DNA from: Collibacillus ludicampi
GTDB taxonomy: Bacteria; Bacillota; Bacilli; Tumebacillales; BOQE01
Length of the DNA: 64,000 nucleotides
Assembly (NCBI RefSeq): GCF_023705585.1
Contig: NZ_BOQE01000001.1
Location: 1,191,341 to 1,255,340 of the forward strand
Reading direction: 5' to 3'
Shown piece after piece: positions 14,617 through 63,244 of the stretch. The stretch's first letter is position 1, and every line of letters begins with the position of its first letter. The position numbers were made by a program, and so were the translations under genes. Under the pieces are notes generated by a model. It did not search any database. It was not told where the DNA came from and worked only from the letters and a program-made list of their open reading frames with translations.

Positions 14617-17600
14617 CTACTTGGAAATCGGCATCATAGGATCTGCCATTTGCACACGGTTTTTCCGGCGGAACTTCCGACGGATGAAGTTGCCGAAATC
14701 ATCAAAAAGCGTATAAACAACCGGAATGAGCACCAGAGTGATCAAGGTGGAGAATGTGAGCCCGAAGGCGACAACGGTTGCCATCGGCGCTTGCGCTTCT
14801 CCCCCCTCCCCAAAACCGATCACAAGCGGCAACATCGCCAACACAGTGGTGGCCGTCGTCATCAAGATAGGCCGCAAACGAACCGGTCCGGCAGCCAACA
14901 GGGCTTCGTTCCGTTCCATGCCTTTTTTGCGCAATTGGTTGGTATAGTCGACCAACACGATCGCGTTGTTGACGACGATCCCGATCAACATGATCATACC
15001 GGTCAACGCGCTGATGCTTAGTGCCCGGTGTGTCAGGACGAGCCCGATGGCCGCACCGATGAATGTCGGTGGCATTGAGAACATGATGATAAACGGACTG
15101 AACAGCGACTCGAACTGGCTGGCCATGACCATGTATACCAGGATGATCGCTAACGGCATGGCGAATCCTAAGCTCTTGAAGGAATCATTCAGGTCGTTGC
15201 GCGATCCGCCGAGACCGATAGTATATCCGTCAGGTACCGGAATTTGCGCGACCTTGGCGGCTACTTCGTTTTGCGCCATTCCCTGGTTGACGTTAAACAA
15301 CTCGGCAGTCACGGAAATGGTTCTCGTTTGGTTCGTGCGGCTGATTTGCGCAGGCCCGACGGTGGGAACGATGGAGGCCACATCGCTGAGAGCCACTTGT
15401 CCGCCGTTTTGTGTGGCGATCGTCACGCTTGACAGATTCTCGATTTGCCGGCTGAACGTTTCCGGGTATTCCACGATCACGTCGATCGAACTGTCACCCG
15501 CATGAAATTGGGTCGCAACCGCCCCTTGATAAGCCGAACGGATCGCGGAAACGATCTGACCGACCGACAAACCGTACTGGGCGGCCAATTGCCGATCCAC
15601 ATTCACCTGATATTGCGGAACTTGCTTATCCAACGAGCTTTGCACGTTCCGCGTGCCCGGCACGCTTTCAACCACTTTCTCCACTTCATCGCTCAGCTTT
15701 TGCAAGACCTTTTCGTCATCACCGCTGATCTGTACCTGAATGGGAGATCCACCGCTGCCGAATCCTGTCGACGATGCGGATACTTGGATGCGAGCCCCCG
15801 GGATATTGGCCACCTTTTTCCGCACCTCTTCGACGACTTGATCCGTGGATCGCGATCTTTCTGCCAGCGGTTTTAAATTTACTTGAATGTTCGCTCTATC
15901 CGTCGAAGCGAGACTAAATGGGCCGCCTCCCGCTCCTCCGACTTGTGTAAACACGGTGGTCACTTCAGGCATTTGGCGGATGATGTTTTCCACCTTCGTC
16001 GCGACCTGGTTGGTTACGTCCAACCTGGTTCCGTTGGCCATTTGAATGCTCACTTTGAAATGACCCTGGTCTACGTTGGGCGCCAACTCGAAACCGATCA
16101 AAGGCACCAGTGCGACACTGCCTGCAAACATGGCGATCGTTGCCACAATGACCGTCTTGCGGTGACCGAGTGCCCAACGGAGAACACGCCCATACGCACG
16201 GTTCAAGCGGATCAGCCCGCGTTGGAAAGCCGCCAAGGGGTTAAAACGCCCGCCGGTCACATGTTCTTCGTCATCCTGCACCTGGGGCATCCATTTGGAC
16301 GCGAGCATCGGCACCAACGTGAGAGCACCGAACAAGGCAGCCACGTGCGAATAACTCACCGTCAGCGCGAGCGGGCCAAACAGTTGAGTGGCCAATCCGC
16401 TGGTGAATGCAATCGGCGCGAACACGGCGATCTGTGACAATGCGGAAGCCATGACGGCCGCGCCTACTTCGGCTGTACCCAATTTCGCCGCATCCTTTGC
16501 GTTATGTCCCTGGCTGCGATAACGGAAAATACTCTCGATCACCACGACGGCAAAGTCGACCAACGAACCTAACCCGAGCGCCAAACCGCCCAATGTGATC
16601 GTGTTGATCGTCTGGTTTGTGAAATACATCAGTGTGAACGTACTGATGATCGAGATCGGAATGACCACGCCGATGATCAACGTGGTGCGGATTCTCCGCA
16701 AAAAGAGGAACAAGACGATCACAGACAACACGGCACCCAATAACGTGTGTTCGACGACCGTTTGAATCGATTGCTTGATATCAACCGCCTGGTCGGACAC
16801 CACCGTTAATTGAACGGTCTTTGGCAGCACCGCTTTCATCTGATCGAGCGCTTGATGGACGTTGTTCGATACCTGAACCGTGTTGGAGTCAGGCACTTTT
16901 AAAATATCGATACTCACACTGGGGACACCGTTAACGCGCGCCATCTCCGTGACATCCGCGTACGTATCCTGAATGCTGGCGATATCTCGGATATAGATCG
17001 TGGCCCCGCTCTGTAGACGGATGGGCACATTGCCGATATCGTTCACATTTTTGAAGTCGCCGTCCACATGGAGGCTGATCGATTTATTCCCCTGGTTGAC
17101 AAGCCCTCCGTCTGCCGATGTGTTATCGTTTTGCAGCGCTTGTGTCACCTGGCTGATCGACAAACCGTAGGCTTGCATTTTGGCGGGGTCGAGATCGATA
17201 TGAATCTCTCGTTTTTTCCCGCCTGTCACTTGTGTCGAAGCCACACCATCGACACGCTCCAAGCGCGGTTCGACAATATCGGATGCGAGGCGCTTCAATT
17301 CCAATGCGTCCGTATTGCCGGAGAGCGTGACGGTCAGAATCGGTGAACTGTTCGGATCGACACGGGTCACCGTCGGTGTGTCCACATCGGTCGGCAAACT
17401 TTTGCGGATGCGATCCAATTTGTCACGCATCTCCAACGTCGCCTGGTCCATATTCACGCCATAATTGAAACGTACGACCACACGCGAGGTGTTTTGGCTG
17501 GATGTCGAATCGACCTCTTTCACATTGGAAACGGTGGACATCGCCGATTCGATCGGCTTTGTGATCTGCTGCTCCACCTCTTCAGGCGATGCTCCCTGCC

Positions 17601-17751
17601 ACGTGGTGCTGACCACTGCGACAGGAATCGTCATATTCGGGTACAGATCCACGCGAAGGAGTGGAATCGAGATCGTCCCCAACAGAATGAGGACAATCAT
17701 GATCATCGAAATGGTGACTGGTCTTTCGATTGAAAAATTGGCGATTTTCAT
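14617..17751 (-). CDS. RND-family efflux permease (HAE-1/AcrB-like)
   Basis: 1044 residues, the usual length. TM1 near residues 12-32 is followed by a large extracytoplasmic porter domain, six TM helices from about 335, a second porter domain and the last TM block ending near 1020. Family motifs are present: RVDLYPNMTIPVAVVSTTW, GASPEEVEQQITKPIESAM, and GIVVNNAIVLVDYTNQLRKK in TM10. In TM4 the usual acidic pair reads LVDFAVVVIES, so one of the two proton-relay Asp positions is Phe. Its start overlaps the stop of the adaptor gene by four bases, indicating coupling. Homologues in Gram-positives export lipopeptides, fatty acids or drugs; the substrate here is unknown. Confidence 0.95.
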   Translation of the reverse strand: MKIANFSIERPVTISMIMIVLILLGTISIPLLRVDLYPNMTIPVAVVSTTWQGASPEEVEQQITKPIESAMSTVSNVKEVDSTSSQNTSRVVVRFNYGVNMDQATLEMRDKLDRIRKSLPTDVDTPTVTRVDPNSSPILTVTLSGNTDALELKRLASDIVEPRLERVDGVASTQVTGGKKREIHIDLDPAKMQAYGLSISQVTQALQNDNTSADGGLVNQGNKSISLHVDGDFKNVNDIGNVPIRLQSGATIYIRDIASIQDTYADVTEMARVNGVPSVSIDILKVPDSNTVQVSNNVHQALDQMKAVLPKTVQLTVVSDQAVDIKQSIQTVVEHTLLGAVLSVIVLFLFLRRIRTTLIIGVVIPISIISTFTLMYFTNQTINTITLGGLALGLGSLVDFAVVVIESIFRYRSQGHNAKDAAKLGTAEVGAAVMASALSQIAVFAPIAFTSGLATQLFGPLALTVSYSHVAALFGALTLVPMLASKWMPQVQDDEEHVTGGRFNPLAAFQRGLIRLNRAYGRVLRWALGHRKTVIVATIAMFAGSVALVPLIGFELAPNVDQGHFKVSIQMANGTRLDVTNQVATKVENIIRQMPEVTTVFTQVGGAGGGPFSLASTDRANIQVNLKPLAERSRSTDQVVEEVRKKVANIPGARIQVSASSTGFGSGGSPIQVQISGDDEKVLQKLSDEVEKVVESVPGTRNVQSSLDKQVPQYQVNVDRQLAAQYGLSVGQIVSAIRSAYQGAVATQFHAGDSSIDVIVEYPETFSRQIENLSSVTIATQNGGQVALSDVASIVPTVGPAQISRTNQTRTISVTAELFNVNQGMAQNEVAAKVAQIPVPDGYTIGLGGSRNDLNDSFKSLGFAMPLAIILVYMVMASQFESLFSPFIIMFSMPPTFIGAAIGLVLTHRALSISALTGMIMLIGIVVNNAIVLVDYTNQLRKKGMERNEALLAAGPVRLRPILMTTATTVLAMLPLVIGFGEGGEAQAPMATVVAFGLTFSTLITLVLIPVVYTLFDDFGNFIRRKFRRKNRVQMADPMMPISK

Positions 17752-19211
17752 TGCTGATCACCCGACGCTTGGGCAGCGTCTTTCTTTTGACCGTTGCCTT
17801 GGCTTTGCGTGCCTCCGTGTTTATGAGATGAGTCGCCTGAGGCTTGCGCAGAGCTGTCTTTGCTTTGGGAACCGCTCTTGTTGGTCACATTCACCGAAGC
17901 ACCTTCACCGAGCAGTTCTTGTCCTTCGGTTACGAGTACATCTCCCGCTTTCAGACCTTCGAGAACTTCCACTTGATCGCTCTCGATCGCTCCCAGTTTC
18001 AAGAGATGTTGATGCGCCACATTGTTTTCAACGGTGAAGACTTTGGGCCCATCGGGCGTTTGTACCAATGCGTTCGCAGGAATGACCAACGCTTTGCGCG
18101 GGGTGAGCCCTTCCACCGTCACTTGCGCCACCATACCCGGTTTCAGTTTCCGGTCGGGATTTTTGATCTCAACAATAGCCTGATAGGATTTCGAATTCGT
18201 GTCTTCCACCGGATTGATCCGTGAAATGACCGCATCCCATGTTTGGTTCCCCAACGCATTGACAGCTACTTTGACGTGCAGGCCTTCTTTGACTTTGTCA
18301 ATCATATTTTCGGGAATATTCAGGTTCACCTGTACTGGGTCGATTTGCGCGATCGTCGCTACCGAGCCTTGCCCACCGGCATAACCGCCGACCTCCACAT
18401 CCTTGGAAACCACCACACCGTCGACCGGCGAAGTAACGGTCGCTTGGGCGATCTGGCTCTCTGTCGCATCAATGTTCGCCTGGATCTGTCCCAGTTGCGC
18501 CTGGGCCGCCGCCACCTGCGCCTGCGACTGAGCCACCTGGTCTTGCGCGATCTTCACGCTGTCCACGTTGAGCGGGTCTCCTCCGGGACTCGCCGCATTT
18601 ACTTGTTGCTGAGCGGCGTCGTATTTCGACTTGGCCGTTTCCAAAGCGGTTTGCGCAGCGTCGAGATCCGCTTTTGGAATCGCCCCCTGTTGGTACAAGT
18701 TCTGTTTGCGATTGTACGTATTCTGAGCGTCATCCAATGCGATCTTTGCTTGCTCTAAAGGAGCCAGCAATTGATTGTAGTTATTCTGTGCGTCCGTTTT
18801 CGCTTTTTCCAATTGGGCCTCGCTGGTTTGCACCTGCGCCTGGATCGCTTGCACCTGCGCCTGTTGTTGTTGGAGCTGAGCCTGCTGTTGCCGCAGCTGA
18901 TTTTCTAGGTCGGTGGTATCCACTTGAACCAGCGGTTGGCCCGCTTTCACCGTATCGCCTGCATTGACGAATACTTTAACCACTTTCCCGCTGACTTTCG
19001 AAACGACTTTCGTTTGTAAACTCGGACTGATCTGGCCGGTAAAAACGGCGTGGGCACCGATCGTTCCCTCTTTGACCACTGCGGTTGCCACAGGGACTGC
19101 TCGCGAAGCCGGTTTTGCAGTCGCCGAGTTACTCGAACCGCAACCGCTCAGTATCGCAGAGCCGATGACTACACTCGTCAGCATGACCGGGACCAGTTGC
19201 TTTTTCTTCAT
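17748..19211 (-). CDS. RND periplasmic-adaptor/HlyD-type lipoprotein
   Basis: 487 residues. The N-terminus MKKKQLVPVM and the lipobox LSGCGSS (Cys near residue 25) mark a lipoprotein. A biotinyl-lipoyl-like half (SGKVVKVFVNAGDTVKAGQPL) leads into a long Gln/Ala-rich alpha-hairpin (about 105-245), then the second lipoyl half (ATVTSPVDGVVVSKDVEVGG), a beta-barrel and a membrane-proximal domain. The last 50 residues are Ser/Gln/Gly-rich. It would couple the RND pump to whatever lies outside the membrane. GAGGGG precedes the ATG. First gene of a two-gene operon. Its long hairpin is what would meet a TolC-like partner, and such a protein is encoded at 57305. Confidence 0.94.
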   Translation of the reverse strand: MKKKQLVPVMLTSVVIGSAILSGCGSSNSATAKPASRAVPVATAVVKEGTIGAHAVFTGQISPSLQTKVVSKVSGKVVKVFVNAGDTVKAGQPLVQVDTTDLENQLRQQQAQLQQQQAQVQAIQAQVQTSEAQLEKAKTDAQNNYNQLLAPLEQAKIALDDAQNTYNRKQNLYQQGAIPKADLDAAQTALETAKSKYDAAQQQVNAASPGGDPLNVDSVKIAQDQVAQSQAQVAAAQAQLGQIQANIDATESQIAQATVTSPVDGVVVSKDVEVGGYAGGQGSVATIAQIDPVQVNLNIPENMIDKVKEGLHVKVAVNALGNQTWDAVISRINPVEDTNSKSYQAIVEIKNPDRKLKPGMVAQVTVEGLTPRKALVIPANALVQTPDGPKVFTVENNVAHQHLLKLGAIESDQVEVLEGLKAGDVLVTEGQELLGEGASVNVTNKSGSQSKDSSAQASGDSSHKHGGTQSQGNGQKKDAAQASGDQQ

Positions 19212-21507: not shown

Positions 21508-23280
21508 TTAGGCATGTGTATTGGTCTCAATGGCCTGCTCAAATGCCGCAAGCAACTCATTATATGTGCCATACGCATGTCCCGCAATCGCTTGGTTCAC
21601 CGCTGCTTGCGCTTCTTGCGACAACGCGTTGTAAGCGATCATGTCCTTTTTCATACGCAAGAGGAGATCATCGATCTTCGTTCCCGAGAGCATTTTCAAG
21701 TTCGGCGTGGCCATCGCGTCTTCCAAAGCGGTGATGACATCGGTGATGTAAGAAGCATCGGAGAGATCTCCGGCGGATGTTGCCGTTTGCACGCGATTCA
21801 GTTCTTGCAGGAAAAGGGTTCTCACGTTTACCGATTGGTTAAAGACGGTTTTCACATCGTTCACGTTCGTATACCCTCCTGCCGGTTTGTTGTCGAGGAC
21901 ATCCTTGGCGACATTCAGTTGATTGTCGTAGTTGGGCGGGTGACCGGCGGTATCGCCCAGCAGTTTCATATAGTCGCTCCCCGCCGAAACGTCAATTCCG
22001 AGATCCTGGGCGTTTTTCTCTAACAGAGATTTCATCGTGTTGAACTCCGGCGCTTCATTGATCGCAATGAGAAGTGCCGCTTGTTTGACCGCAGCGGAAA
22101 ACGCCTGGATCAATGCTGGATAAGAGGCAAACGATTGACCTTGAATGGCGGAGCTCACGAGTCTTTTCTGCTGGTCGGTGAGTCCGTCATAATCGGCAAC
22201 AAGCGCACGGTATTGTGTAAGCGTGTCACTGATTTTGCTGCCCGATTCCACCGTGAAATCCGGTATTTTCTCCGCTTCTTCCAAAGCGGCGATCACGTCG
22301 GTAAGAAACTTGCGATTCTGCGCCAAAATGTCGTCAACCGAAGCGGCATGATTCACATCGGCTAACGACTGCCGGATCACCGTTCGTGTGGTTACCGCAC
22401 GGTCAAACAGGGTTTTGACATCATTTGCTGTTTGGAAACCGCCCTCCGGCCTGTTCGCGTACACATCGAGCGCCACGATCTGTTTCTCGTCATTTGGAAG
22501 CTGTCCGTAGGAACCGCTTGCGGAAAGATCGATCGTCAAATCGGCCGCGTGATTTTCCAATGCGGATTGCATACTGCCCTCATCCGCCTGGTTGACTGCT
22601 GTCAAGGCGGCGCTGACACGGGCTGCGTCCCCTTGTCCCACGCCCTGTGTTACTTTCATGAAATTGAGCAACATCGCGGCCACTTCCTGACGCTGCGCAC
22701 TCTTTTGCGGATAGAAATGCGAGCCGTCCCCGCTCATCAGCCCGATTTCCATCGCGGCTTGCACATATCCTTTCGCCCACGGGCTGACATCATCGCGGTC
22801 AGCAAGCTTGAGGGAGTCCCCTTTTCCATCCGCCGACCCTTTGGCCGCATGCACGAGTATCGCAGCCATCTCTTCACGCGTGATCGGATCATTCGGACGG
22901 AATGTGCCTTTGTACCCCGCCATCAAACCCGCCTGGGCGACCGCTTCGATCTGTTTCATCCCCCAATTCGCAGATGATACGTCGGAAAAAGAGGATCGCG
23001 CGACATCGGGTGTTTGCAGATGCAAGAGGTTAACCAGAATGGCCGCGACTTCCTGGCGGGTAACCGTATCTTTCGGACGGAACGTTCCTTTCATGTCCCC
23101 GCTCATTAAACCTAGCTTTTTCACTTCGGCAATCAAGTCCCGTGCCCATGGGCTTGCTGTGTCGATATCCGTGAAGGAGGAAGATGACGCCGGTTTATCC
23201 GTTGCCGCAAAAGAAGCCGCCGGCGAAACCGCAGTGGTCAGTGCAACGGTGACCGCCAGGAGTTTCTTGAATTGGTTCAC
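21508..23280 (-). CDS. SLH-domain protein with two ~170-residue repeats
   Basis: 590 residues. Signal peptide 1-25 (ends ASFAA). Three SLH units at about 35-90, 95-150 and 155-210, with SPWARDLIAEVKKLGLMSGD and FRPKDTVTRQEVAAILVN as clear examples. Then come two copies of a domain of about 170 residues sharing the pattern NAxxLGIDxSxxSxY, later DVY or DVL, GGYTNVNDVKTVF and SGTKIDDLL. I do not recognise this domain. A close paralogue is encoded at 32339-34435. The start is taken at GTG 23280, the position matching the paralogue, with GGGGG upstream; the frame is open eight codons further to a TTG. Confidence 0.87.
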   Translation of the reverse strand: MNQFKKLLAVTVALTTAVSPAASFAATDKPASSSSFTDIDTASPWARDLIAEVKKLGLMSGDMKGTFRPKDTVTRQEVAAILVNLLHLQTPDVARSSFSDVSSANWGMKQIEAVAQAGLMAGYKGTFRPNDPITREEMAAILVHAAKGSADGKGDSLKLADRDDVSPWAKGYVQAAMEIGLMSGDGSHFYPQKSAQRQEVAAMLLNFMKVTQGVGQGDAARVSAALTAVNQADEGSMQSALENHAADLTIDLSASGSYGQLPNDEKQIVALDVYANRPEGGFQTANDVKTLFDRAVTTRTVIRQSLADVNHAASVDDILAQNRKFLTDVIAALEEAEKIPDFTVESGSKISDTLTQYRALVADYDGLTDQQKRLVSSAIQGQSFASYPALIQAFSAAVKQAALLIAINEAPEFNTMKSLLEKNAQDLGIDVSAGSDYMKLLGDTAGHPPNYDNQLNVAKDVLDNKPAGGYTNVNDVKTVFNQSVNVRTLFLQELNRVQTATSAGDLSDASYITDVITALEDAMATPNLKMLSGTKIDDLLLRMKKDMIAYNALSQEAQAAVNQAIAGHAYGTYNELLAAFEQAIETNTHA

Positions 23281-23416
23281 GATCGTTGTCCCCCATTCCA
23301 ATCCTATTCTATCTTCTACCAGTATAGCGAAAGGTGATAGGATTTGGAAAGGGAGGGATGTCTTTTCATTGTTTAGCTATTCACTCATCCTTTATCCGTT
23401 CTCGTGATAATTGGCT

Positions 23417-34435: not shown

Positions 34436-34553
34436 CGAAAGGACCTCCTCCAAACCATCATCTTCTCTAAGTATAAAGAAAATCTATTAAAAAAAGATAG
34501 ATCTTCTTCTGCCAAACATCCTTAATCTTCTCGAACTCCAAGCGGCAGATAGA

Positions 34554-39011: not shown

Positions 39012-39368
39012 TCATACGATTGTGCGCGCGGTCACCGCAGGGTGAGCTTGTCGCTGTTCGAGAGATAAACCATCGAGTAGCCAACGCAACTCCCGACGAC
39101 TGATTTTCAACGGTACGGAGCTCGCTTCTTCCGGCCACTGAAATTTTCCTTTCTCTAACCGGCGGTAATAGAGCCAGAAACCGTTGTGTTCCCAATGAAG
39201 AATCTTCAGTTTATCTCGCTTTCGATTGCAGAAAACGAAGAGACAGGGCGAGAAAGGGTCGAGTTCAAACTCTTCCTTGACGAGCACAGCTAACCCGTCA
39301 ATCGATTTCCGTAGATCGGTGCTTCCGCAGGCCAGATATACTCGCTCTACAATAGCTTCGCTTAGCAT
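39012..39368 (-). CDS. tnpB: IS66 Orf2 (TnpB) accessory protein
   Basis: 118 residues with the family pattern VYLACGSTDLRKSIDGLAVL, CNRKRDKLKILHWEHNGFWL and FQWPEE. Its role in IS66 transposition is needed but undefined. It overlaps the end of tnpA by seven bases, as is usual for these elements. Confidence 0.95.
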   Translation of the reverse strand: MLSEAIVERVYLACGSTDLRKSIDGLAVLVKEEFELDPFSPCLFVFCNRKRDKLKILHWEHNGFWLYYRRLEKGKFQWPEEASSVPLKISRRELRWLLDGLSLEQRQAHPAVTARTIV

Positions 39369-39679
39369 AACGTTTGGAGTGTTCGCACGACGTCGGCCAG
39401 CAGCGCAGGATCAAAGCCAGGCTGGATCTCTACGGTTACTTGCCCTACTCTAACGAGCAAGGTGTTTCTAGACTCGTCAGTCTGCCCGTCCACTTCTGCC
39501 GATATCCACTTGGATGATGGGGTCACAGCGGCTTCTTTGTGTTCAATCTTCCGGAGCCAATACCGGAACTGATGAAGCTTCAACTGATGAGCTCTACACC
39601 AAGCTGATGCGCTCTGTCCGCTAGCCCGAAAAGCGGCGATCCGTACCTCCCACTCTTTTCTCAGTTCTGCATGGGACAT
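39362..39679 (-). CDS. tnpA: IS66 Orf1 (TnpA) DNA-binding protein
   Basis: 105 residues. A helix-turn-helix-like start (RIAAFRASGQSASAWCRAH, then KLHQFRYWLRKIE) and the end VEIQPGFDPALLADVVRTL are typical of the IS66 tnpA. GGAGAGGA precedes ATG 39679, close to the right inverted repeat. Confidence 0.93.
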   Translation of the reverse strand: MSHAELRKEWEVRIAAFRASGQSASAWCRAHQLKLHQFRYWLRKIEHKEAAVTPSSKWISAEVDGQTDESRNTLLVRVGQVTVEIQPGFDPALLADVVRTLQTLC

Positions 39680-51944: not shown

Positions 51945-53300
51945 TTAAACGGAAGCCACAGATTCTTTGATATTTAAATTGACAATATTGTACGTAAGCT
52001 CGTTAGGAACATATAACAATCCCGGCACATAATTTTGACCTTCTAATGGTGGAACTTCAAAAAAGATCGCTACATTCACACAATCAAGAAATATTGGTTC
52101 AATTGGTTTCGGCTTTAGTCCCAAAGATACTGAGTACGAGCCTGGTGCAAGAATATTTTTAAATGTGAATTCAACCTCTAAAATAGTTCCTTTTTTTATA
52201 GGGGGTAACAAACGGTTTAGATTGAATATGTTCATGCCGAAGACGTCTTGGCCGTTCCGGTTACGCACCATGTATCCAACCGTACCTTCAGTGTCAATGT
52301 CAGAGTAATATTCGGCAACTAATCGAAAGACAACCTCTTCACCAAATGGGATAATATGTGTCGGTTTAGAATCTACTAAGGCTTCTGCCCTAATGAATCG
52401 GGCATGCCCAGTTCCAGACCGAAACTGACTCACTCTTCTCGTAAACTCTGGATCCTCACTTAATTCTTTAGAGATCTGATTATGCCTCATATCCTTTTTT
52501 TCTAATTTAGGCTTTGCAGCGAGTTCTGCAATTGACTTAAGCTTAGAGGTAACAATTTGCTGGTTAATCAGTCTTTCATAAGTTTCTGTGACCATTTGTA
52601 TATCTCCAGCAGTGTGAATTCGCCCTTGATCCAATAAAATCCCCTTGTTACAGAAAGATCTCACCACTTCCAAAGAATGAGATACAAAAATCACAGTTCT
52701 GCTGTTGACCCATTCCCTGATTTTTTCCATACATTTAGCCGTGAAGTAAGCATCTCCTACGCTTAACGTCTCGTCTACGATTAAAATATCTGGGTCAACA
52801 TTGATCGCAACTGAAAATGCAAGCCTAGCAAACATACCGCTTGAGTACATTTTGACAGGTTGAAAAATGAAATCACCTATATCCGCAAACTCGATGATTT
52901 CATCCAATTTTTTATCGATTTCCTGCTTTGATAAACCCATAATCGTACCATATAGGTATATGTTCTCAATTCCGGTCAATTCAAGATTAAATCCTGCTCC
53001 AAGCTCAAGAAGCGCTGCAATTTTCCCATTGACACTGATCGTGCCAGAAGTAGGCTGCAAAATCCCTGTAATAAGTTTAAGAAGAGTCGATTTTCCTGAA
53101 CCATTTCTCCCTATAATTCCAAGTGTATCACCCATTTTCACCTGAAATGAGATATCCTTAAGCGCATGAAATTCTTTATGATATTTTTTTTTGAATGGAT
53201 GAATGGATTCTTTTAATCTATCTATAGGATTTTCATACAATTTATAAGTTTTTGAAACACCTTTCACATCGATCATTACCTTATCCTTATCAATAATCAC
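51945..53300 (-). CDS. wzt: ABC transporter ATPase with C-terminal glycan-binding domain (Wzt-like)
   Basis: 451 residues. ATPase (about 1-250): Walker A IIGRNGSGKSTLLKLITGIL, Q-loop region, signature MYSSGMFARLAFSVA, Walker B DILIVDETLSVGD. The C-terminal part (about 290-435) is a beta-rich Wzt_C-like domain (VGYMVRNRNGQDVFGMNI, GSYSVSLGLKP), which in O-antigen exporters binds the capped chain end. It powers export of the lipid-linked glycan with the permease encoded just upstream. GTG 53300 has GAGGTG five bases away; an ATG at 53276 is an alternative. Confidence 0.94.
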   Translation of the reverse strand: MIIDKDKVMIDVKGVSKTYKLYENPIDRLKESIHPFKKKYHKEFHALKDISFQVKMGDTLGIIGRNGSGKSTLLKLITGILQPTSGTISVNGKIAALLELGAGFNLELTGIENIYLYGTIMGLSKQEIDKKLDEIIEFADIGDFIFQPVKMYSSGMFARLAFSVAINVDPDILIVDETLSVGDAYFTAKCMEKIREWVNSRTVIFVSHSLEVVRSFCNKGILLDQGRIHTAGDIQMVTETYERLINQQIVTSKLKSIAELAAKPKLEKKDMRHNQISKELSEDPEFTRRVSQFRSGTGHARFIRAEALVDSKPTHIIPFGEEVVFRLVAEYYSDIDTEGTVGYMVRNRNGQDVFGMNIFNLNRLLPPIKKGTILEVEFTFKNILAPGSYSVSLGLKPKPIEPIFLDCVNVAIFFEVPPLEGQNYVPGLLYVPNELTYNIVNLNIKESVASV

Positions 53301-53309
53301 GATATCACC

Positions 53310-54119
53310 TCAAATCACGTCGGAAAAATGCGGCCTTAGTTTTTTAAACAATGAACCCCCGATGATAATCACAAGAAATGTTAATATCCAAAAATAAAAT
53401 GTAAGTTTAGGTTCTTCCCAAAACCACTTGTGATATATAAATGCATTTCTGTAACCCTCAACAATATAATAAAGAGGATTAAGTTTTACCACGAAATGAT
53501 AATTTGGGGGAAGAATCTTAAATGACCAGAAAATCGGGGTCAGCCAGAATAAAAATTGAAGTAACATCCCAACGATTTGACCGATATCTTTGAGAAATAC
53601 AATCAATGCTGATGTAATCCATGAGATCCCTAGAACTAATAGAACAGAAGCAATCAGATAATAAAAAACCTGGAGATAGTAAATCTGAAAACCGAATCCA
53701 TAAACCCAAAACATTATAAAAAGAAGAAGTATAAAAAATACATGTATAAATAAAGATGATAAGATCTTAATCAAAGGCAGGATACTAACTTTGAAAACCA
53801 CTTTTTTTACAAGATAACCATTCTCTATAATTGACGTTGTTGCGTTTGTCACACTATCGGAAAAAAACATCCATGGAACCATGCCTGCCATTAACCAGAG
53901 GATAAAAGGAAAATTATCAACAGGCATTGACTTGAAACCAACCTGAAAAACAAACCACAAAATTAAGATGTTGATTGTTGGTTGCACAAATGCCCAAAGA
54001 ATCCCTAAATACGAACCCAAGTATCGAAGTTGAATATCTTTTTTTGTGAGTTCAAAGATGATATGCCTTAGTTTAACAATTTCACGCAGTGAACGAATTA
54101 CACTTCTCATTAACTCCAT
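53310..54119 (-). CDS. wzm: ABC-2 type glycan export permease (Wzm/TagG-like)
   Basis: About 269 residues with six TM helices. RYLGSYLGILWAFVQPTINI, LMAGMVPWMFFSDSV and the late YYIVEGYRNAFIYHKWF are typical of Wzm/TagG permeases. It forms the channel for the polymer exported with the Wzt-like ATPase ten bases downstream. The start is uncertain: the frame is open to 54236, but ATG 54119 (AAAGGA nearby) gives the usual N-terminus. Confidence 0.92.
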   Translation of the reverse strand: MELMRSVIRSLREIVKLRHIIFELTKKDIQLRYLGSYLGILWAFVQPTINILILWFVFQVGFKSMPVDNFPFILWLMAGMVPWMFFSDSVTNATTSIIENGYLVKKVVFKVSILPLIKILSSLFIHVFFILLLFIMFWVYGFGFQIYYLQVFYYLIASVLLVLGISWITSALIVFLKDIGQIVGMLLQFLFWLTPIFWSFKILPPNYHFVVKLNPLYYIVEGYRNAFIYHKWFWEEPKLTFYFWILTFLVIIIGGSLFKKLRPHFSDVI

Positions 54120-54511
54120 AATCCTTTCATCCTTCTGTTCAGCCACTCTCGACGTTTCTAGCATCATGATAAATGATATTTTATAAATAGAAAGAGTGAG
54201 AGGCTGACACTCGTATTCCGAATGTTCTCTCACCAAAGGAATTAGTAATATTTAAGCCTCATTTATAACACTATATTGCTCCTATAGTTCTTAGAGTACA
54301 GAAAAAATCAAGAACGTGCCAATAACATACCGATCAACTACAGACTTTTTCATAATGTGAACTCTTTAAGCTTATTTCTATTTACTCCCCCAAAGATTAA
54401 AAATACAATCATTCATTAATAACATGGTTGACATTCGAACGTTCTGTGATCGCCCAAATGTCTTTCTAGTTAATTTACGTGAAATTTACTATCTATCCAT
54501 TCAGCTCAAGT
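54120..54511 (-). other. Intergenic stretch inside the glycan operon
   Basis: A+T-rich gap between the ligase-like gene and wzm, long compared with all other spacings of the operon. The part up to 54236 is an open in-frame extension of wzm. The remainder probably holds a promoter for wzm onwards. I see no terminator. Confidence 0.35.
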
Positions 54512-56869
54512 TTACTCTCCACCCCTACTAATCATCAAATTTTTCTTTTCAGCATCTATGTTCTTCAATTGGTCAAAATATTGTTTCATCCGTTTATTCC
54601 CCTTAATTTGTTCTAAAAAACTATTATCAACAACTTTCCCTTTTTTTGTCTGAATTGCAACTAAAATCACTTTCGCCTTCTCTTTATCCTGTTCACTAAC
54701 CCCCTGCATAGTTAGCAAAGGTTCAACCAATCGCTTCGCCTCATCATATTGCCCCAAATAAAACGCTGACTCTCCAGCGTACAGGTGCATGGCTGGCGTA
54801 AGATCATAAGGATACTCTGGCTTCAAAACAGGTGGCAGATTCTTGAAATTCGCGATTCGCTGCTCTATATCGTGGTAGGTGTTTAAAGTTTCCTGAAAAA
54901 AATTCTTAGCTTTGTTTTTATCTTTCTGATAAAGTTGAGTTCCTAACACATCAGTATAGACCATATACTGCTCAGGATACTGTATATGATAACGTCCATT
55001 CTCCCAGGACTTTTTCAAAACATCAACAGCCTGTAATCCATCTCCGTAACTGCCAATAAGCAGCCCCGCTTGTCTCAAGATTTCCGGGTCATGTGATGCT
55101 ATAGAAGCTGCATTCTGAGCACTGCTATTGATATCTTTCTTTAAACTCTCTTTATTATTTTTCTTATACATCATCTCATCAAATCGGGCTTGGGTTAACC
55201 AAGCAGATGCACGATAAGGAGCGAGAGCAACAGCGTTTTCCGCTGCATTAAGAGCGACTTCGGGATCTTTTTCGTTTGCATTTGCTTTTTTCATATAATG
55301 ATCAGAAAGTAAAAATCCGCAAGCAACAACACTTATAACCACAGAAAACATTACTCCAAGTACGGTTAATCCCTTTTGAAAAGCTGGAACGTGAACGTGT
55401 CTGGCAAGAATATTTTCCTGTTGTATGGATAGCTTGGGTAAAAGTAATGCGATCAATAACCACATAAGAAAATTAATTGTTCCATAAGAGAAATCAAAAT
55501 CGATGGCACCATGGGCGAGAAGACCTAATAAAGAAATTATAAGCCCGTCTGTTATTAAACGATTTCGTACATGCTGTTTTCGGTATATACGAATCGCTAC
55601 CCATAGTGTGCAAACAATCATCGCAATAAACAATAAGAAGCCAACAACACCCACACTCATAATGATATCGATTAGATAACTATGTGATTGCCGACTTGTG
55701 TACGGATAAGACTGATAGCGTTGCCAGAGCGCTTCCCAAGCATTTGGTCCCGCCCCAAACAAGGGATGTTCTGATAAGATTTTAAGACCATCCCGGTAAA
55801 AGAGAAATCGTTGGACAACAGAAAACTGTTGCAGATTAATCGATGTAATCCGTTGCACAAAGTTCTGTGGCAAACCGTGCTTCATAATAAGAGCAACCGC
55901 AATAACTACTAGAACTGATCCGAAACCAAACGCGCCAAACTTCCATTGTCGCGAGGTTAATCGTTTTTTCAACAAAGATGTTAATCCAGTGAAAATGGTT
56001 ACGCCTACTATACCAAGAATGAGAGACGACCACCCAAGTAATTGTCTTTGTGCTAAAGTTGCCTTCGACAAAAAAGATAATGTGATCAAAACTATGATGA
56101 TGGGAATTAATATATTCAATAAAATCTTACCCTTATTCTCTTTCGGAGATATCAAAAGCATGCACAACAACATTCCCGCCAGAACCAACCATGTTCCCCG
56201 AGAATAAGTTAAGATTAGGGCAACAATGATTATAAATCCCGCAATATTGTAAAGGTATTTCCTTTTTGATTGCTCGGCCACATAACTTGACATTACAACG
56301 GCAAACAAAAACGTAATCCCCTGATAGATCGCAAAAGTGTTGGGATACTCAAAATTAGACGCAAGTCGTCTCATCTGCAGATCAAAAATGGCACCGTTAA
56401 TCTTAAGTGTCCCAAAGCCGTTAGAAAGCCCGTATAACCCAAAAAGAACACCCGAAATAATCAAACCGTTTATTATGATTTGCTTTTTGTCATCCGTACT
56501 CACAAGAACTCGAATCACAAGATAGAATAGAATATAACTAATTCCGCGCACTAAGCCTAAAACGGCGTACTCAACGTTCGCAGGCCCCAGTGCTGAGAAA
56601 AAATATACAGCGAAATAGGAAAGCACCAGATAATCAACAAAGTTCCATCCGCTTACCTTTAATCGATTCTGCTTTAACCATATAAAAGCAATGATAACGA
56701 TAATAGACCAATAGATAGAAGCTGACATGAAGGATGGATCAAAAAAAAGACCGTTCCATAATGGAAAGATAATGAATAATAAAGCAACCATATAGTAAAA
56801 AGCTGGTGTCGTCTTTGGAGCCTCGATGGCGCGAATTGAACCCCCAATGCTCGTTAAATCCTGTATCAT
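54512..56869 (-). CDS. O-antigen ligase-like membrane protein with TPR tail
   Basis: 785 residues. About twelve TM helices up to residue 500, with the Wzy_C/WaaL-type loop containing LFYRDGLKILSEHPLFGAGP and QSHSYLIDIIMSVGVVGF (the conserved His-Ser region). A TPR-like soluble C-terminus follows (about 530-785: ALNAAENAVALAPYRASAWL). WaaL/PglL-type proteins transfer finished glycans from lipid to an acceptor; in P. alvei WsaB does this for S-layer protein. First gene of the 13-gene operon. GGAGG stands before ATG 56869. It could be a polymerase instead, but an ABC-exported chain normally needs only a ligase. Confidence 0.88.
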   Translation of the reverse strand: MIQDLTSIGGSIRAIEAPKTTPAFYYMVALLFIIFPLWNGLFFDPSFMSASIYWSIIVIIAFIWLKQNRLKVSGWNFVDYLVLSYFAVYFFSALGPANVEYAVLGLVRGISYILFYLVIRVLVSTDDKKQIIINGLIISGVLFGLYGLSNGFGTLKINGAIFDLQMRRLASNFEYPNTFAIYQGITFLFAVVMSSYVAEQSKRKYLYNIAGFIIIVALILTYSRGTWLVLAGMLLCMLLISPKENKGKILLNILIPIIIVLITLSFLSKATLAQRQLLGWSSLILGIVGVTIFTGLTSLLKKRLTSRQWKFGAFGFGSVLVVIAVALIMKHGLPQNFVQRITSINLQQFSVVQRFLFYRDGLKILSEHPLFGAGPNAWEALWQRYQSYPYTSRQSHSYLIDIIMSVGVVGFLLFIAMIVCTLWVAIRIYRKQHVRNRLITDGLIISLLGLLAHGAIDFDFSYGTINFLMWLLIALLLPKLSIQQENILARHVHVPAFQKGLTVLGVMFSVVISVVACGFLLSDHYMKKANANEKDPEVALNAAENAVALAPYRASAWLTQARFDEMMYKKNNKESLKKDINSSAQNAASIASHDPEILRQAGLLIGSYGDGLQAVDVLKKSWENGRYHIQYPEQYMVYTDVLGTQLYQKDKNKAKNFFQETLNTYHDIEQRIANFKNLPPVLKPEYPYDLTPAMHLYAGESAFYLGQYDEAKRLVEPLLTMQGVSEQDKEKAKVILVAIQTKKGKVVDNSFLEQIKGNKRMKQYFDQLKNIDAEKKNLMISRGGE

Positions 56870-57254
56870 TATGTAATCCTCCGTCATCTACGAATTCACT
56901 TGTAATTTTATCAATAAGAATGACAAATTTCGATAGTAATCGACTATTAATTTTAGGTAAAAATAGCGGTAATAAATAAAATGTTCTTGATCACAAGCTG
57001 TATCTGCATTTAATCGATGAATTAAACTCATGGGAAATTATAGTACATCAGAGGAAATTTACGCATAAGTTATTTGCTTGATCCAAAATTTTCGAGAATT
57101 CGAGAAATTAACTTTAAAACAAATCCCATTTTTCCATAAATAATTGGTGTCTTCCTCAAAAGTTACGATTCTCAGCTAAACCAAAGCTCATCTCTTTGTA
57201 TATACTCATCAGTCATATACTTCATATGAAGTTAAGCCTAACATTAAAAAATCA
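56870..57254. promoter_or_regulatory. A+T-rich region upstream of the glycan operon
   Basis: Very A+T-rich, some 385 bases, between the operon start and the terminator of the TolC-like gene. It must contain the promoter of the glycan operon. I cannot point to definite boxes. No open frame of interest. Confidence 0.4.
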
Positions 57255-57304: not shown

Positions 57305-58831
57305 TTACTTTCCTGAACCTGAGCTTGAACTTGAAGAGGAACTAGAACTAGAGGACTGACCTCCTCCAGAGAACACCCAAGGTTTATCAAAAGCCATCAG
57401 GTAATTGTCATGCTGCGCAACGAGATCAAACATTTTCTGCTTTATCGTTTCAACGTTTAATTGAGCGTTGATTAGATCCGCTTGTACGGCCATTCCATTA
57501 TCATACAACACTTGAGTTTTCTTTAAATTTTCCTCGGCTGACGCGAGACTTGCCTGCAAACTATTATACTGATCTTCTAATTGTTTAATTGTATAGTACA
57601 AAGAGCGTACACTATTACTCAACTGATTTTGCTGATCGGCCGCATTAAAGGTCGCCAAATCCACATCGATCTCTTTCGCGTGATATGGATCGGCTGTTGG
57701 GTCATTAAAGGTATATAACTTTAAACCCAACTGGGCTAAGTCAATTTTTTGATTAATTTGCCACAAAAGAGGACTTTCTGAAGTTACCTGACTAACTTTA
57801 GTATTGAGATCCACTTGTCCCAGTGCTTTCATTTGTGGAATATCAAGCAACTGAGGTCTTGCATCCGGAGACAGTCCTATCAGTTGATCCAACTGCTGAT
57901 ACGCGCTATCCAAAGCTCTCTGTGCAGCTTCCTGGCTGGCTATAAGGGAATTGTAGTTGCTATTTGACTGCTGTAGATCGATATTGCCTAAGAGGCCATT
58001 TTGATATTTCACTTGGTTAATCTGTTGTTGAATTGCCGCATTCTTTACTTGTAAATCAGCCAAAGTCTTAGCTTCTTGCGCTTGCAGTACCGCGTTATAA
58101 GCTCGCTTGACGGCATACGCAAGAGAATCTTGTGTAAACTCATACGCCTTCTGGGCGCTTTGATAATTTATGTTTGCCGTCGCATAATTGGTGAAAGCAC
58201 GCGTGGCAGCCGTATTTCCACCTTTATCAGGTACATAATTTACATTGTCAGCAGCGTTATCTAAAACTTCCTTGGCACGGTTAATACTTGCAAGAGATTC
58301 CTTTACTGGATAACTGTTAGCCGTCGCCAAATCTAAAGCTTTCTGAAACGTCAAAGGAATGGCTACCTGATCATTGGATGCCTGATTTGAATCCCCCACG
58401 AGCCCTTTCGTCGAAATTATTACTGTTCGGTTGTTCCCATCCCATTGTACATCCGCTCCCAACGCTTCACTGACAAAGCGCAAAGGAACCATCGTTCGGT
58501 CGTTCACAATATGAGCGGGTTCATCCAACTTTTCTCGGAAACCATTAATCACAGCAAATGGAGAATCAATCGCTAAAACGATCTTTTTATTATCTTTTGT
58601 AACCGTTACGGTTTGCGACTGACCGTCCCAAGTAACTGTAGCTCCTAACTTTTCAAATATACTGCGTAGCGGTACTAAAGTACGGTCGTGAACAATAACA
58701 GGTCCCGGATCAAATTGTTGTACTTGACCATCAATTTTAATTGTAATATCCGATGTTGAATCGGCAATAGCCAAAGGAGAAGTGGCCAATACCAAAGAAG
58801 ATGCGAGTACACCAGATAGGATCTGTTTCAT
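57305..58831 (-). CDS. TolC-family protein with N-terminal stalk (CuAO_N) domains
   Basis: 508 residues. Signal peptide 1-23 (ends LAIAD). Residues 28-145 hold two CuAO_N units: VIVHDRTLVPLRSIFEKLGA and HIVNDRTMVPLRFVSEALGA, each followed by V-x-WDG. From about 160 to 485 the protein is helical with TolC/OEP features (IPLTFQKALDLATANSYPV, VKYQNGLLGNIDLQQSNSNY, VLYDNGMAVQADLINAQLNV), but I see no beta-barrel strands. The C-terminus is a run of about twelve Ser. GGAGGAG precedes ATG 58831. A helical TolC-type tube on stalk domains in a single-membrane cell is unusual; it could extend an efflux or secretion machine through the wall. Confidence 0.85.
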   Translation of the reverse strand: MKQILSGVLASSLVLATSPLAIADSTSDITIKIDGQVQQFDPGPVIVHDRTLVPLRSIFEKLGATVTWDGQSQTVTVTKDNKKIVLAIDSPFAVINGFREKLDEPAHIVNDRTMVPLRFVSEALGADVQWDGNNRTVIISTKGLVGDSNQASNDQVAIPLTFQKALDLATANSYPVKESLASINRAKEVLDNAADNVNYVPDKGGNTAATRAFTNYATANINYQSAQKAYEFTQDSLAYAVKRAYNAVLQAQEAKTLADLQVKNAAIQQQINQVKYQNGLLGNIDLQQSNSNYNSLIASQEAAQRALDSAYQQLDQLIGLSPDARPQLLDIPQMKALGQVDLNTKVSQVTSESPLLWQINQKIDLAQLGLKLYTFNDPTADPYHAKEIDVDLATFNAADQQNQLSNSVRSLYYTIKQLEDQYNSLQASLASAEENLKKTQVLYDNGMAVQADLINAQLNVETIKQKMFDLVAQHDNYLMAFDKPWVFSGGGQSSSSSSSSSSSSGSGK

Positions 58832-58942: not shown

Positions 58943-58972
58943 AAAAAAGGGGCCCCAAAGAGGCCCTTTTTA
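58943..58972 (-). terminator. Rho-independent terminator of the S-layer-like gene
   Basis: AAAAAGGGGCC pairs with GGCCCTTTTT; on the minus strand the hairpin ends in TTTTTTAC. It is ten bases past the stop at 58982. Confidence 0.9.
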
Positions 58973-58981
58973 TTCCATTTA

Positions 58982-61327
58982 TTAATTGCCAAGAGAAATG
59001 GTTTGATTTGTTGCATCCCAGTTATAAGGTACACCTAAAACTTGTGCAAGCCATGCGATCGGAAGGAATGTACGGCTGTTTGTAATTTCGGGAGCAACAT
59101 CCATAGTTAACGGCGTACCATTCACGGTCAATACGTTGTTGCCAATTACCATTCGAATTACAGTGCTTCCTTTGAAGATCGTTACCGAACTATCATTACC
59201 ATTCCAAATAATGTTTTGCAATGGTACCCCAAGTGCTTGTGCAACATAGGTAACAGGTACATAGGTGCGATTATTTTTGATGTAAGGAGCTACATCAGCT
59301 GTCAGGGTTTGACCATTTACAGTGTAAGATGTGCTGCCAATTGTAAACTGAGCGGTACCAGAAGTTTGGCCGAAGAGCCCAGTATTAACATTAGCAACAG
59401 TCGCTTTAGCAACAGTTGTAGTATCACTGCTCCAAGCAGTAATCTTATTCGCTGCGTAGTCAACCGCCTCACCTTGAAGTTTAACAGGAATAGGACCTAC
59501 AGGAGTTGTATTATCCAGTTTAATGGTTCCACCACTAATTTTGAAGGTAGAAGGCGCAGCAGCACTAGCAGAATCCAGCGTAAAGACTAACAAGTTACCA
59601 TTGGTATAAACATTAGTAACGTGAGCATCCCCAGAAGTAACTGTTACAGTTGGTGTTTGATCCCATTGTACACCAGGTGCATCTAATTTAAGAATAACTT
59701 GGTCTTTGTTAGCAACACCTTGGACACTATCTCTATCGAATGCTCCTGCTTTTGCTTCTGTAACAGTAATATCTCCGATCGCTTGACCTGCTTTACCAGG
59801 CTCTACATTCTTAACATCAGAAACAGTAATCGTTCCAGGAGCCTGTGCAGTAGCGACTTTAACTGTTCCCGTTACGCCAGCAGTTCCACCAATAGAAAGA
59901 TTTATATCACCATTCGCTCTTGCAGACGTTGCAATCTGTACATTTTTAATATCGACTTCGCCAGGGTCCGTGTTGCCTTGAGAACCAACACCATGGAATG
60001 TTAATTTCAATGTGCGATAGTCAGTACCCGTATAGGTTGCAGTGACATTCAATCCATTAGTAGTGGTATAGTTAATGGTCGGTATCCATCCTGTGCTAGA
60101 AGCGTTAGGACCACTTGTGCTATTAGGAGTTCCACCATTTGCCACTGCGTTTTCAAATACATCTTCCCAACGAGCGCTATCCGGCAGGGTAAGTTCAACA
60201 GTGCGTCCATCTACGAATGTACCAGGAACAGACTCTTTGATAATGATATCACCAATTGTTTGTTGGGACTTACCTGCAAGGATAGTAGGTGTCGATGCTG
60301 CAGATACAGAAGCGCTGTAGTCGCCATAGGTACCTACTTGCGCAGAAGTTGTATTTACTGTTGATGTACCAGAGATATAAACATTAATAGGTCCGTTGTG
60401 AGTTAGAGTGCTATCATTTACTTCAAATTTCAAAGGAATTTTAAAAGCTGAAGCTGTAGACTCTGAAGCATTGGTAGCTTTTAAGTACAGCGTATCGGTA
60501 CCTGTACCTGATACAATTTGAACGGAATTAGCTGGATCGCCATAAAGTTGGCTTACACTTCCATTAAGGCCATCCCAAACATAACCAGATGGTAATTTAA
60601 GCTTGAGTGCATTATTGTCTGTTTTTAAAGAACCAGCAAGTTCTTCTGATAAGGTAAGATTGAAAGTAAATGTGTTGCTTCCGCTAGTTGTATCTGAAAC
60701 AGCCACATCAACAGCACCATTGCTTTGAACGTTAGCGACTGTTACAGAACCGGTAGGGAATGCACTGCTCGTTGGAGCAGCTAAAGTAACGTTCACAGGC
60801 CCACTGCTAGGTCCATTTACTGTAATATTGTGAAGTGCTACGTTAATTTTAATGTCATCAGTAGGTGAAGTAGCTCCGTTAGTATTAGAACCTCCACTAA
60901 CGGCAGAAACAGGATCGTTATTTATCACAATTTTAATTTGATTGTTACTGATAGGAGTAACAGTTGCTAAACCTGCAATACCTTGGCTACCTTGGGTTTG
61001 GTAAACACTTACGTTGTAAGTGCTGTCTGCAACTGTCCCAACATTAGGATTTACAGTGGTGAAAGTAAACCCATGAGGAAGACTCAGAGTTACAGTGTCA
61101 CCTTTTTTAAGTGCTCCACCTGGAATAGTCATGGAGATAGTCCCCAAGTCAGTAGTGTATGATCCAGAGGTGGTTGAATTAGCAATAGTAGGAACTGTGA
61201 AAGCTGTTACTGTGCTGGCTGCTGCGTGAGCAACAACTGCTGTACCTGCGATTCCTGCTACTGCCGGTACGCTAGCCAACATTGCAGAAGTGGAAAGTAC
61301 CGCGAGAAACTTTTTACCTTTTTTCAT
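58982..61327 (-). CDS. Probable S-layer protein with C-terminal stalk (CuAO_N) domains
   Basis: 781 residues, rich in Thr, Ser, Val, Asn and Gly and nearly free of Cys and Met. Signal peptide about 1-36 (ends VVAHAAA). Beta-rich repeats follow with recurring GDI-type motifs (SQQTIGDIIIKESVPGTFVD and GQAIGDITVTEAKAGAFDRD), as in surface-array proteins. The last 125 residues form two CuAO_N units: YIKNNRTYVPVTYVAQALGV and EITNSRTFLPIAWLAQVLGV. There are no SLH domains. The long leader, strong AGGAGG and own terminator suit a highly expressed gene. S-layer identity is inferred from composition and the adjoining glycan operon. Confidence 0.75.
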   Translation of the reverse strand: MKKGKKFLAVLSTSAMLASVPAVAGIAGTAVVAHAAASTVTAFTVPTIANSTTSGSYTTDLGTISMTIPGGALKKGDTVTLSLPHGFTFTTVNPNVGTVADSTYNVSVYQTQGSQGIAGLATVTPISNNQIKIVINNDPVSAVSGGSNTNGATSPTDDIKINVALHNITVNGPSSGPVNVTLAAPTSSAFPTGSVTVANVQSNGAVDVAVSDTTSGSNTFTFNLTLSEELAGSLKTDNNALKLKLPSGYVWDGLNGSVSQLYGDPANSVQIVSGTGTDTLYLKATNASESTASAFKIPLKFEVNDSTLTHNGPINVYISGTSTVNTTSAQVGTYGDYSASVSAASTPTILAGKSQQTIGDIIIKESVPGTFVDGRTVELTLPDSARWEDVFENAVANGGTPNSTSGPNASSTGWIPTINYTTTNGLNVTATYTGTDYRTLKLTFHGVGSQGNTDPGEVDIKNVQIATSARANGDINLSIGGTAGVTGTVKVATAQAPGTITVSDVKNVEPGKAGQAIGDITVTEAKAGAFDRDSVQGVANKDQVILKLDAPGVQWDQTPTVTVTSGDAHVTNVYTNGNLLVFTLDSASAAAPSTFKISGGTIKLDNTTPVGPIPVKLQGEAVDYAANKITAWSSDTTTVAKATVANVNTGLFGQTSGTAQFTIGSTSYTVNGQTLTADVAPYIKNNRTYVPVTYVAQALGVPLQNIIWNGNDSSVTIFKGSTVIRMVIGNNVLTVNGTPLTMDVAPEITNSRTFLPIAWLAQVLGVPYNWDATNQTISLGN

Positions 61328-61988: not shown

Positions 61989-63110
61989 TCATTTTCGACA
62001 AATCTGCTGATAAACCGCCGTGGTTTGCGCGAGAAGGCGTTCCGTGGAGAATTCCCTGTAGACCTTTTCCTGGCCGGCGAGCCCCATTTTCTTCATGCGT
62101 TCCGGGTGGGAGAGCGCATCGCGGATCGCTTCCGCCAGCGCAGCAGGCGCTTGCGCAGGTACCAGGATACCGTCCACCTGATGAGTCACGATCTCCGGCG
62201 AGCCTCCTACCGCTGTCGTAATGACAGGCACACCAGCGGCCATCGCTTCCAGGATCGCCACGGACAAACCTTCCGAGATGGAGGGAAGGACAAAGAGATC
62301 CAGTTGCGGCAAGAGGTCAGGCACATCTTTGCGCACGCCGAGGAAATGGATCACGTTCTGCAGCCCCGCCTGTTGCACTTGCTTCTCCAGATCCTCGCGA
62401 AGCTCCCCGCCGCCGATCCATACGTAGTGTACGTCCGGCCACTGTTTGACGAGTTCGCGGATCGCTTGGATCAGGTAAATGTGTCCTTTGACCGGGTGCA
62501 TTCGCGCGACCGTCCCGACAAGCACCGTATCCTGCGAAAGGTTCAGTTCGTCGCGCAGAGTGGAATGTTTGGCTCGCGACGGACGAACCGAAGGCAATTC
62601 GATCGCATTGTGGATGACGCTGATGCGGTCACTTGCGACTGTTTTGCGAAATTCCCTCTCCATCGCATGGGATACGAGTATGAAATGGTCGACATACCTT
62701 CCCGTCCATTCTTCCAGCCGCCCGAAGAGCCAACGTTTCCAGGCCACCGGGTAATCGAGCGCGAGGACGCTGTGCACCGTGGTGATCAGTTTGCAAGGCG
62801 TGCCTTCCAGCCTGTTGGCGATACGGCCGACCAGATTGGCGCGTACGCCGTGCGTATGAATGATCTCCGGGCGGAAGGTACGGATCAGGCGGCGCACCTC
62901 GGTTAGACCAGAGAGAATCAAATAGCTCTTCCCCGGTCCCAAAACGGTGACTGGGACATGATACTCACGGACGCGCGCAGCGAATTCCGCATCGTAAAAA
63001 ACCGCTACGTGAGGCTTATATTGAGTTGGATCGAGGGACTTGACGAGACTGAGCAGGTGCTGCTCAGCACCACCAAATTCCCCGCCCCCGATGATATAAA
63101 GAATCCTCAT
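61989..63110 (-). CDS. GT4-family glycosyltransferase
   Basis: 373 residues, GT-B fold. MRILYIIGGGEFGGAEQHLL is the acceptor-side motif; IIHTHGVRANLVGR follows; VGTVARMHPVKGHIYLIQAI and LPSISEGLSVAILEAMAAGV (E-x7-E) with GSPEIVTHQVDGILVP form the donor site. I put the start at ATG 63110; a GTG at 63122 has GAGG about nine bases upstream and is equally possible. Transcribed alone, between the S-layer-like gene and repeat copy 10. Probably part of wall or surface glycan synthesis; donor unknown. Confidence 0.9.
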   Translation of the reverse strand: MRILYIIGGGEFGGAEQHLLSLVKSLDPTQYKPHVAVFYDAEFAARVREYHVPVTVLGPGKSYLILSGLTEVRRLIRTFRPEIIHTHGVRANLVGRIANRLEGTPCKLITTVHSVLALDYPVAWKRWLFGRLEEWTGRYVDHFILVSHAMEREFRKTVASDRISVIHNAIELPSVRPSRAKHSTLRDELNLSQDTVLVGTVARMHPVKGHIYLIQAIRELVKQWPDVHYVWIGGGELREDLEKQVQQAGLQNVIHFLGVRKDVPDLLPQLDLFVLPSISEGLSVAILEAMAAGVPVITTAVGGSPEIVTHQVDGILVPAQAPAALAEAIRDALSHPERMKKMGLAGQEKVYREFSTERLLAQTTAVYQQICRK

Positions 63111-63244
63111 GGGCACATCCACTGTATTCCGCCTCAGCTTTCATTAGTTCTCGTGTTCATTGTAACGGGGTGCGGTTCAATCGTCAAATCCCTTCTCTCT
63201 TGCGCCTCACTCGACTGTCAGGTAGCATAGGGAATTGAACGTAC

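Follow-up and report, generated by a model that had tools for sequence, protein, structure and literature searches.

The window analysed here, a stretch of 64,000 nucleotides of the Collibacillus ludicampi genome, encodes a TolC-like protein of 508 residues with a stalk domain (57305..58831, (-)), whose ATG start is preceded by a strong ribosome site. The open reading frame, Pfam matches and a predicted model agree with a preliminary description of this DNA, which had read in this single protein a signal peptide, two CuAO_N units and a TolC/OEP region. Residues 1-24 (58760..58831, (-)) form a putative signal peptide, recognised by eye and covered by a low-confidence segment of the model (residues 1-26). 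The CuAO_N stalk domain follows (residues 33-139; 58415..58735, (-); PF07833, 1.3e-40), with a Pfam score of 138.1 bits against a cut-off of 24.2; the match is a single domain built from two motif units, and the N-terminal domain of E. coli amine oxidase superposes on its predicted fold over residues 51-127 with a Z of about 11. CuAO_N is found in amine oxidases and in many Firmicute surface proteins; unlike in those oxidases, the stalk here is fused to a TolC-type region and the oxidase domain is absent. That helical region (residues 160-486; 57374..58354, (-)) matches PF02321 (OEP) in two stretches with a Pfam E-value of 6.8e-19 (68.8 bits against a cut-off of 22), and the protein closes with the poly-Ser end noted previously, a Ser-rich segment modelled with low confidence (residues 489-508; 57308..57367, (-)). 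The NCBIfam TolC profiles match the protein far under their cut-offs (TIGR01844, 43.3 against 225.15). Adaptor-type coiled coils aside, it is the sole OEP of its genome.

Directly upstream lies a gene for a 781-residue protein that carries its own signal peptide, recognised by eye, and ends in a CuAO_N stalk domain (58982..61327, (-); PF07833, 4.7e-44); from this make-up and its place we infer that it is S-layer-like. Its predicted model was too poor for its fold to be used (pLDDT 51), and phmmer found no solved relative. Between the two genes, the sequence contains a terminator-like hairpin and, after it, a T run (58950..58966, (-)).

The TolC-like gene sits in a polysaccharide locus that includes a downstream O-antigen-ligase-like (Wzy_C) protein (54512..56887, (-); PF04932, 5.6e-14), an ABC-2 permease, a Wzt-like ATPase and a glycosyltransferase (61989..63122, (-); PF00534, 1.6e-41). 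A downstream gene of the Wzy_C type is also seen in loci L030 and L035, and some of the loci retain the glycosyltransferase further upstream; the sugar genes vary between the TolC-like loci. The ABC-2 permease and the Wzt-like ATPase, the latter with a Wzt_C domain (51945-54236), make up, together with the adjacent Wzy_C protein, an export set of the O-antigen type in a monoderm. Elsewhere in the window are two mutually similar SLH proteins (21508-23301 and 32339-34453), separate from the stalk-type S-layer-like protein, and two small frames (39012-39679) that by eye resemble what we take to be IS66-type transposition proteins.

Results

The host envelope

The source genome (4.09 Mb, 99.87% complete) yielded neither Omp85, for which the same search was positive in 7 of 14 control genomes, nor LpxC, and we therefore regard the host as monoderm. 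The single membrane assumed in the preliminary description thus stands, and neither the outer membrane nor the barrel assembly machinery required by a strict outer-membrane factor was found. The host may have an S-layer, as the S-layer-like neighbour and the two SLH proteins of the window suggest.

Predicted fold and loss of the barrel strands

The AlphaFold2 model of the TolC-like protein is a monomer built from an alignment of three sequences only (the window protein and the proteins of loci L039 and L040), with a mean pLDDT of 77 and a pTM of 0.72. Its helices fall into two pseudo-repeats, comprising residues 162-172, 174-198, 207-277 and 283-318 in the first and 342-352, 354-376, 382-444 and 450-482 in the second, so that the order of the helices in TolC appears twice, as is expected of a member of the family. 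The top structural matches obtained with Foldseek and VIA-align are TolC and its kin (TolC 9tg4_A: Z 25.8, rmsd 3.9, 322 residues aligned, 17% identity), and unrelated structures in the same ranking have Z below 9; from sequence alone, the family profile matches TolC chains with E of 4e-5 to 1e-4. The fold predicted for the protein is hence that of TolC, and an unrelated coiled-coil bundle, which would have spoken against the preliminary description, was rejected because helices, repeats and order all match. The E. coli TolC and OprM-type factors likewise have two long-helix pseudo-repeats and tip glycines; here, G279 and G446 at the tips do not vary among ten aligned relatives.

TolC crosses the outer membrane between its second and third and its sixth and seventh helices. 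At these sites the model and the alignment place two loops of 8 and 5 residues with no strand, which replace the first (residues 199-206; 58214..58237, (-)) and the second barrel-strand pair (residues 377-381; 57689..57703, (-)), in keeping with the missing outer-membrane barrel remarked on in the preliminary description. Room for barrel strands is found in 0 of 50 aligned TolC-like proteins (OEPs) of these Bacilli. In the model, then, the barrel strands are gone and the TolC-type pseudo-repeat is predicted with good confidence. Unlike E. coli TolC and OprM, which as strict outer-membrane factors have four barrel strands per subunit, the protein described here has neither these strands nor an outer membrane and Omp85 around it, and is fused to CuAO_N.

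Relatives of the TolC-like protein

Relatives were sought with the TolC region alone (A2) at a threshold of 1e-8 in 398 genomes of the class. Matches came from 57 genomes and 65 places, which sorted into a close clade of 27 places in 23 genomes, a recurrence far above chance, a second clade (f26) of 33 places in 29 genomes, and five others. A whole-protein search of the genome contigs gave no match, and a closer-alignment search of the contigs gave two loci, one matching the contig of genome G054 in length and content.

Within the close clade, 22 places are linked to an S-layer-like gene, and at a further one (G054) the contig breaks off; of the remaining four, L072 and L079 belong to adaptor-RND operons, and L073 and L087 are part of a lasso-peptide-like cluster. 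The 22 linked loci together with L040, from Schinkia azotoformans, make up the S-layer-linked set of 23. In a tree of 50 proteins, L072 and L079 join L073, L087 and the S-layer-linked L040 with a support of 0.83, and their group is nested within the S-layer-linked clade. The stalk domain is missing from the TolC-like protein in 11 of the 23 loci; in 12 it is present on both the TolC-like and the S-layer-like partner.

At L073 (8765-17248) and L087 (8650-17107) the stalk-TolC gene stands beside genes for Asn-synthase/GATase, kinase-like, transglutaminase-core and NTP_transf_5 proteins and an ABC exporter, with Pfam support from L073 only. By its gene content, this looks like a lasso-peptide cluster with a TolC-like part of its own.

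The tips of the helical region evolve differently in the two clades. Both are the most conserved stretches of the f26 proteins (entropies of 0.24 and 0.28, mean 1.19), whereas in the window's own clade their conservation does not exceed that of the remaining sequence (1.95 and 1.77-1.81, compared with 1.93). As evidence of adaptor docking, tip conservation is thus valid for the second clade only.

Pairing with S-layer genes

The fixed neighbour of the TolC-like gene is the S-layer-like gene, not a pump gene, and this is the strongest fact to emerge from the analysis. A homologue of 58982-61327 lies directly upstream on the same strand in all 23 readable S-layer-linked loci, and these homologues are large secreted proteins that end in a CuAO_N domain. 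Counted with the stalk domain removed from the query, the S-layer-like family is present in 28 of the 398 genomes, that is, in 22 of the 23 with a close TolC-like protein, the single miss being the fragmented G054, compared to 6 of the 375 without one. These six genomes, together with second copies in three genomes, show that the S-layer-like gene also occurs independently of its partner.

In 29 of the 33 loci of the f26 clade, the gene directly downstream of the TolC-like one encodes an SLH S-layer protein; in L108 and L110 the SLH gene is directly upstream. The four loci without such a neighbour (L089, L095, L096 and L121) are all additional copies, each genome concerned having a linked copy as well. 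Pfam recognised SLH in all five S-layer genes scanned (L090, L103, L107, L108 and L110), and the remaining SLH calls of this clade come from a local profile built from 16 of these S-layer genes.

A terminator-like hairpin with a T run recurs between the two genes in 21 of the 23 loci, with energies of -11.3 or lower; because the heuristic is loose, with 36 of 77 other gaps passing it as a control, the terminator is only suggestive. No promoter of the TolC-like gene's own was seen between the genes, and since promoter-like sites there do not exceed chance, this absence says little.

Pump and adaptor genes

The RND permease and long-hairpin adaptor that the preliminary description had seen in the same window are both confirmed by Pfam: a HAE1-type RND permease (14617..17751, (-); PF00873, 2.2e-266), the proposed client, and a lipoprotein-type adaptor (17748..19211, (-); PF16576, 4e-28), which is proposed to dock to the TolC-like tip. 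This pair lies 38 kb from the TolC-like gene, so the TolC-like gene of the window does not share an operon with adaptor and transporter as many of the examples in PMC8809574 do; such operons are found in the relatives L072, L079, L108 and L134. The order is stalk-TolC, adaptor, RND in the tight operons of L072 and L079, and adaptor, RND, TolC-like in L134; at L108, SLH, TolC-like, adaptor and RND genes follow one another on one strand. The hairpin insert of the window's adaptor comprises 161 residues and its tip reads R-x3-L-x6-P, as against R-x3-L-x6-S in the TolC-binding motif given in PMC3391258. The Ser of the motif is kept in adaptors of L031, L074, L075, L076 and L108, and Pro takes its place in those of L080 and L081, as in the window.

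Pump genes lie near the TolC-like gene, within about 10 kb, in 8 of the 23 S-layer-linked loci. An adaptor and an RND gene are upstream of it in L040, and MarR-like, EmrA-like, MFS and adaptor genes are nearby in L074, L075, L076, L080 and L081, Pfam support for this set coming from L081 only. In L031 (444-13870) and L032, one strand carries S-layer-like, TolC-like, EmrA-like, adaptor, MFS, adaptor and RND genes, the last five downstream of the TolC-like gene, the first adaptor of the run having been recognised by eye from the L031 translation. With the queries used, no pump gene was recognised in 15 of the 23 loci within the roughly 14-20 kb read. The f29 genomes of L115 (1-6910), L135 and L136 have an S-layer-like gene and no TolC-like gene, with an adaptor-RND pair adjoining it or within about 10 kb.

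RND permeases like that of the window occur in 351 of the 398 genomes, most of them without such a TolC-like protein, which indicates that a monoderm RND pump does not need one; given this near ubiquity, the mere presence of an RND pump was rejected as evidence. The window's RND subtype (at least 57% identity) is confined to 8 of the 398 genomes, all having the TolC-like protein, and the nearest RND gene is at most 57 kb from the TolC-like gene in 6 of 10 same-contig cases, both counts being uncorrected for the kinship of the genomes.

Discussion

TolC-like proteins have been reported in monoderm Firmicutes by Stubenrauch et al. (2022, PMC8809574), whose 12 examples all come from species in which an S-layer is proven or putative. 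The authors propose that the S-layer houses these proteins, note that part of the beta-barrel is missing from the C. difficile model, leaving a gap, and place many of the proteins in operons with the two other pump parts. Like them, the protein described here has an OEP region in a single-membrane bacterium, here with a putative S-layer, and its pair of OEP matches with a putative signal peptide, the latter recognised by eye, is as expected of such proteins. The question of why a monoderm should have TolC was thus already raised and similarly answered in that work, and the general idea has been in print since 2022. The main text of the paper makes no mention of stalk or amine oxidase domains, and it is by that main text only that the stalk fusion, the pairing with an S-layer-like gene and the terminator-like hairpin seen here are set apart. 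An OEP-family protein of the Gram-positive Desulfotomaculum reducens, Dred_3141, was found by proteomics in the surface fraction with HlyD-family and S-layer proteins (PMC4137172), and the passages on it do not mention a CuAO_N fusion. As far as our literature search shows, the stalk fusion, the fixed pairing with two kinds of S-layer genes and the lack of barrel strands in all 50 aligned proteins are new.

The TolC fold, the loss of the strands, the S-layer pairing, the row of genes in L108, the RND operons of L072, L079 and L134, the pump genes near other loci, the conserved tips of the f26 proteins, the RND subtype seen only in genomes with the TolC-like protein and the standing of this protein as the sole OEP of its genome together suggest a duct with the TolC fold, set in cell wall and S-layer, to which adaptor-pump pairs dock, and we regard this reading, in which transport is a prediction, as somewhat probable. 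Three copies would form the usual helical tube, the lower tip of which would take the hairpin tips of adaptors, namely those of the window's RND-adaptor pair and perhaps of the genome's MFS-adaptor pair, a candidate encoded outside the window, elsewhere in the genome. The upper end would open in or under the S-layer instead of in an outer-membrane barrel, and the CuAO_N domain may bind either wall polymer or the corresponding stalk domain on the S-layer-like protein. Given the terminator-like hairpin between the genes, read-through past it would yield few ducts per many lattice subunits. A single orphan duct could serve several pumps, by analogy with E. coli TolC, likewise an orphan gene that may do so. 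Against the duct stand the many genomes that have an RND permease but no such protein, the Pro of the window's adaptor where the motif of PMC3391258 has Ser, the absence of the stalk domain in 11 and of a recognised pump in 15 of the 23 loci, and the unconserved tips of the window's clade.

Some of the same facts favour a structural role, which the preliminary description had offered beside the conduit: the TolC-like bundle, having lost transport, would act as a rod or spacer, fastening the S-layer-like protein to the wall via matching stalk domains. The barrel is lost, only the S-layer-like gene is a constant neighbour (23 of 23), both partners have a stalk domain in 12 of 23 loci, and neither the tips of the window's clade nor the 15 loci where no pump gene was seen call for a pump. 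However, stalk-TolC paralogues of the same make-up, seemingly derived from the S-layer-linked clade, lie in adaptor-RND operons, at least three lineages have pump genes close to the TolC-like gene, all four genes are consecutive in L108, and the tip glycines are invariant in the ten aligned relatives. We therefore favour the duct over the rod, which we consider rather unlikely. The conduit has gained genomic support from the adaptor-RND operons, the L108 row and the nearby pumps in several lineages, and is in this respect partly borne out.

The place of the window gene within a polysaccharide locus (Wzy_C, ABC-2 permease, Wzt-like ATPase and glycosyltransferase) would fit dedicated export of an S-layer-bound product, either a polysaccharide or the S-layer-like protein itself, in the manner of the diderm type I TolC homologues that serve S-layer proteins. 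This appears improbable to us, because the S-layer-like protein, with a signal peptide of its own, does not need a type I route, and the sugar genes differ between loci. That an ordinary coiled coil resembles TolC by chance, as the matches of OEP profiles to adaptor coiled coils might suggest, is scarcely credible given the agreement in both repeats, all helices and their order, with a Z of 25.8 over 322 residues.

What we describe is a real and conserved variant of the TolC family that is functionally suggestive, its role in transport being predicted only. More tentatively than the duct itself, we propose as a possible generalisation that the S-layer of Bacilli takes the place of an outer membrane: the gene for a barrel-less TolC would be the constant partner of an S-layer gene in two lineages whose S-layer anchors are unrelated (the CuAO_N stalk and SLH), with an S-layer-held duct serving several RND, MFS and other adaptor-linked pumps and its number set by read-through of a terminator behind the S-layer gene.

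One review (PMC8277102) ascribes activity to HAE1-type RND pumps only when adaptors and outer-membrane channels are present. A barrel-less TolC that gene order links to the S-layer offers a concrete and testable answer to how such pumps could work in monoderms. It would mean that the S-layer can hold transport ducts and is not merely a passive sieve, and it bears on whether TolC-type proteins preceded or outlived an outer membrane. In a single-membrane bacterium, the coat may stand in for the outer membrane.
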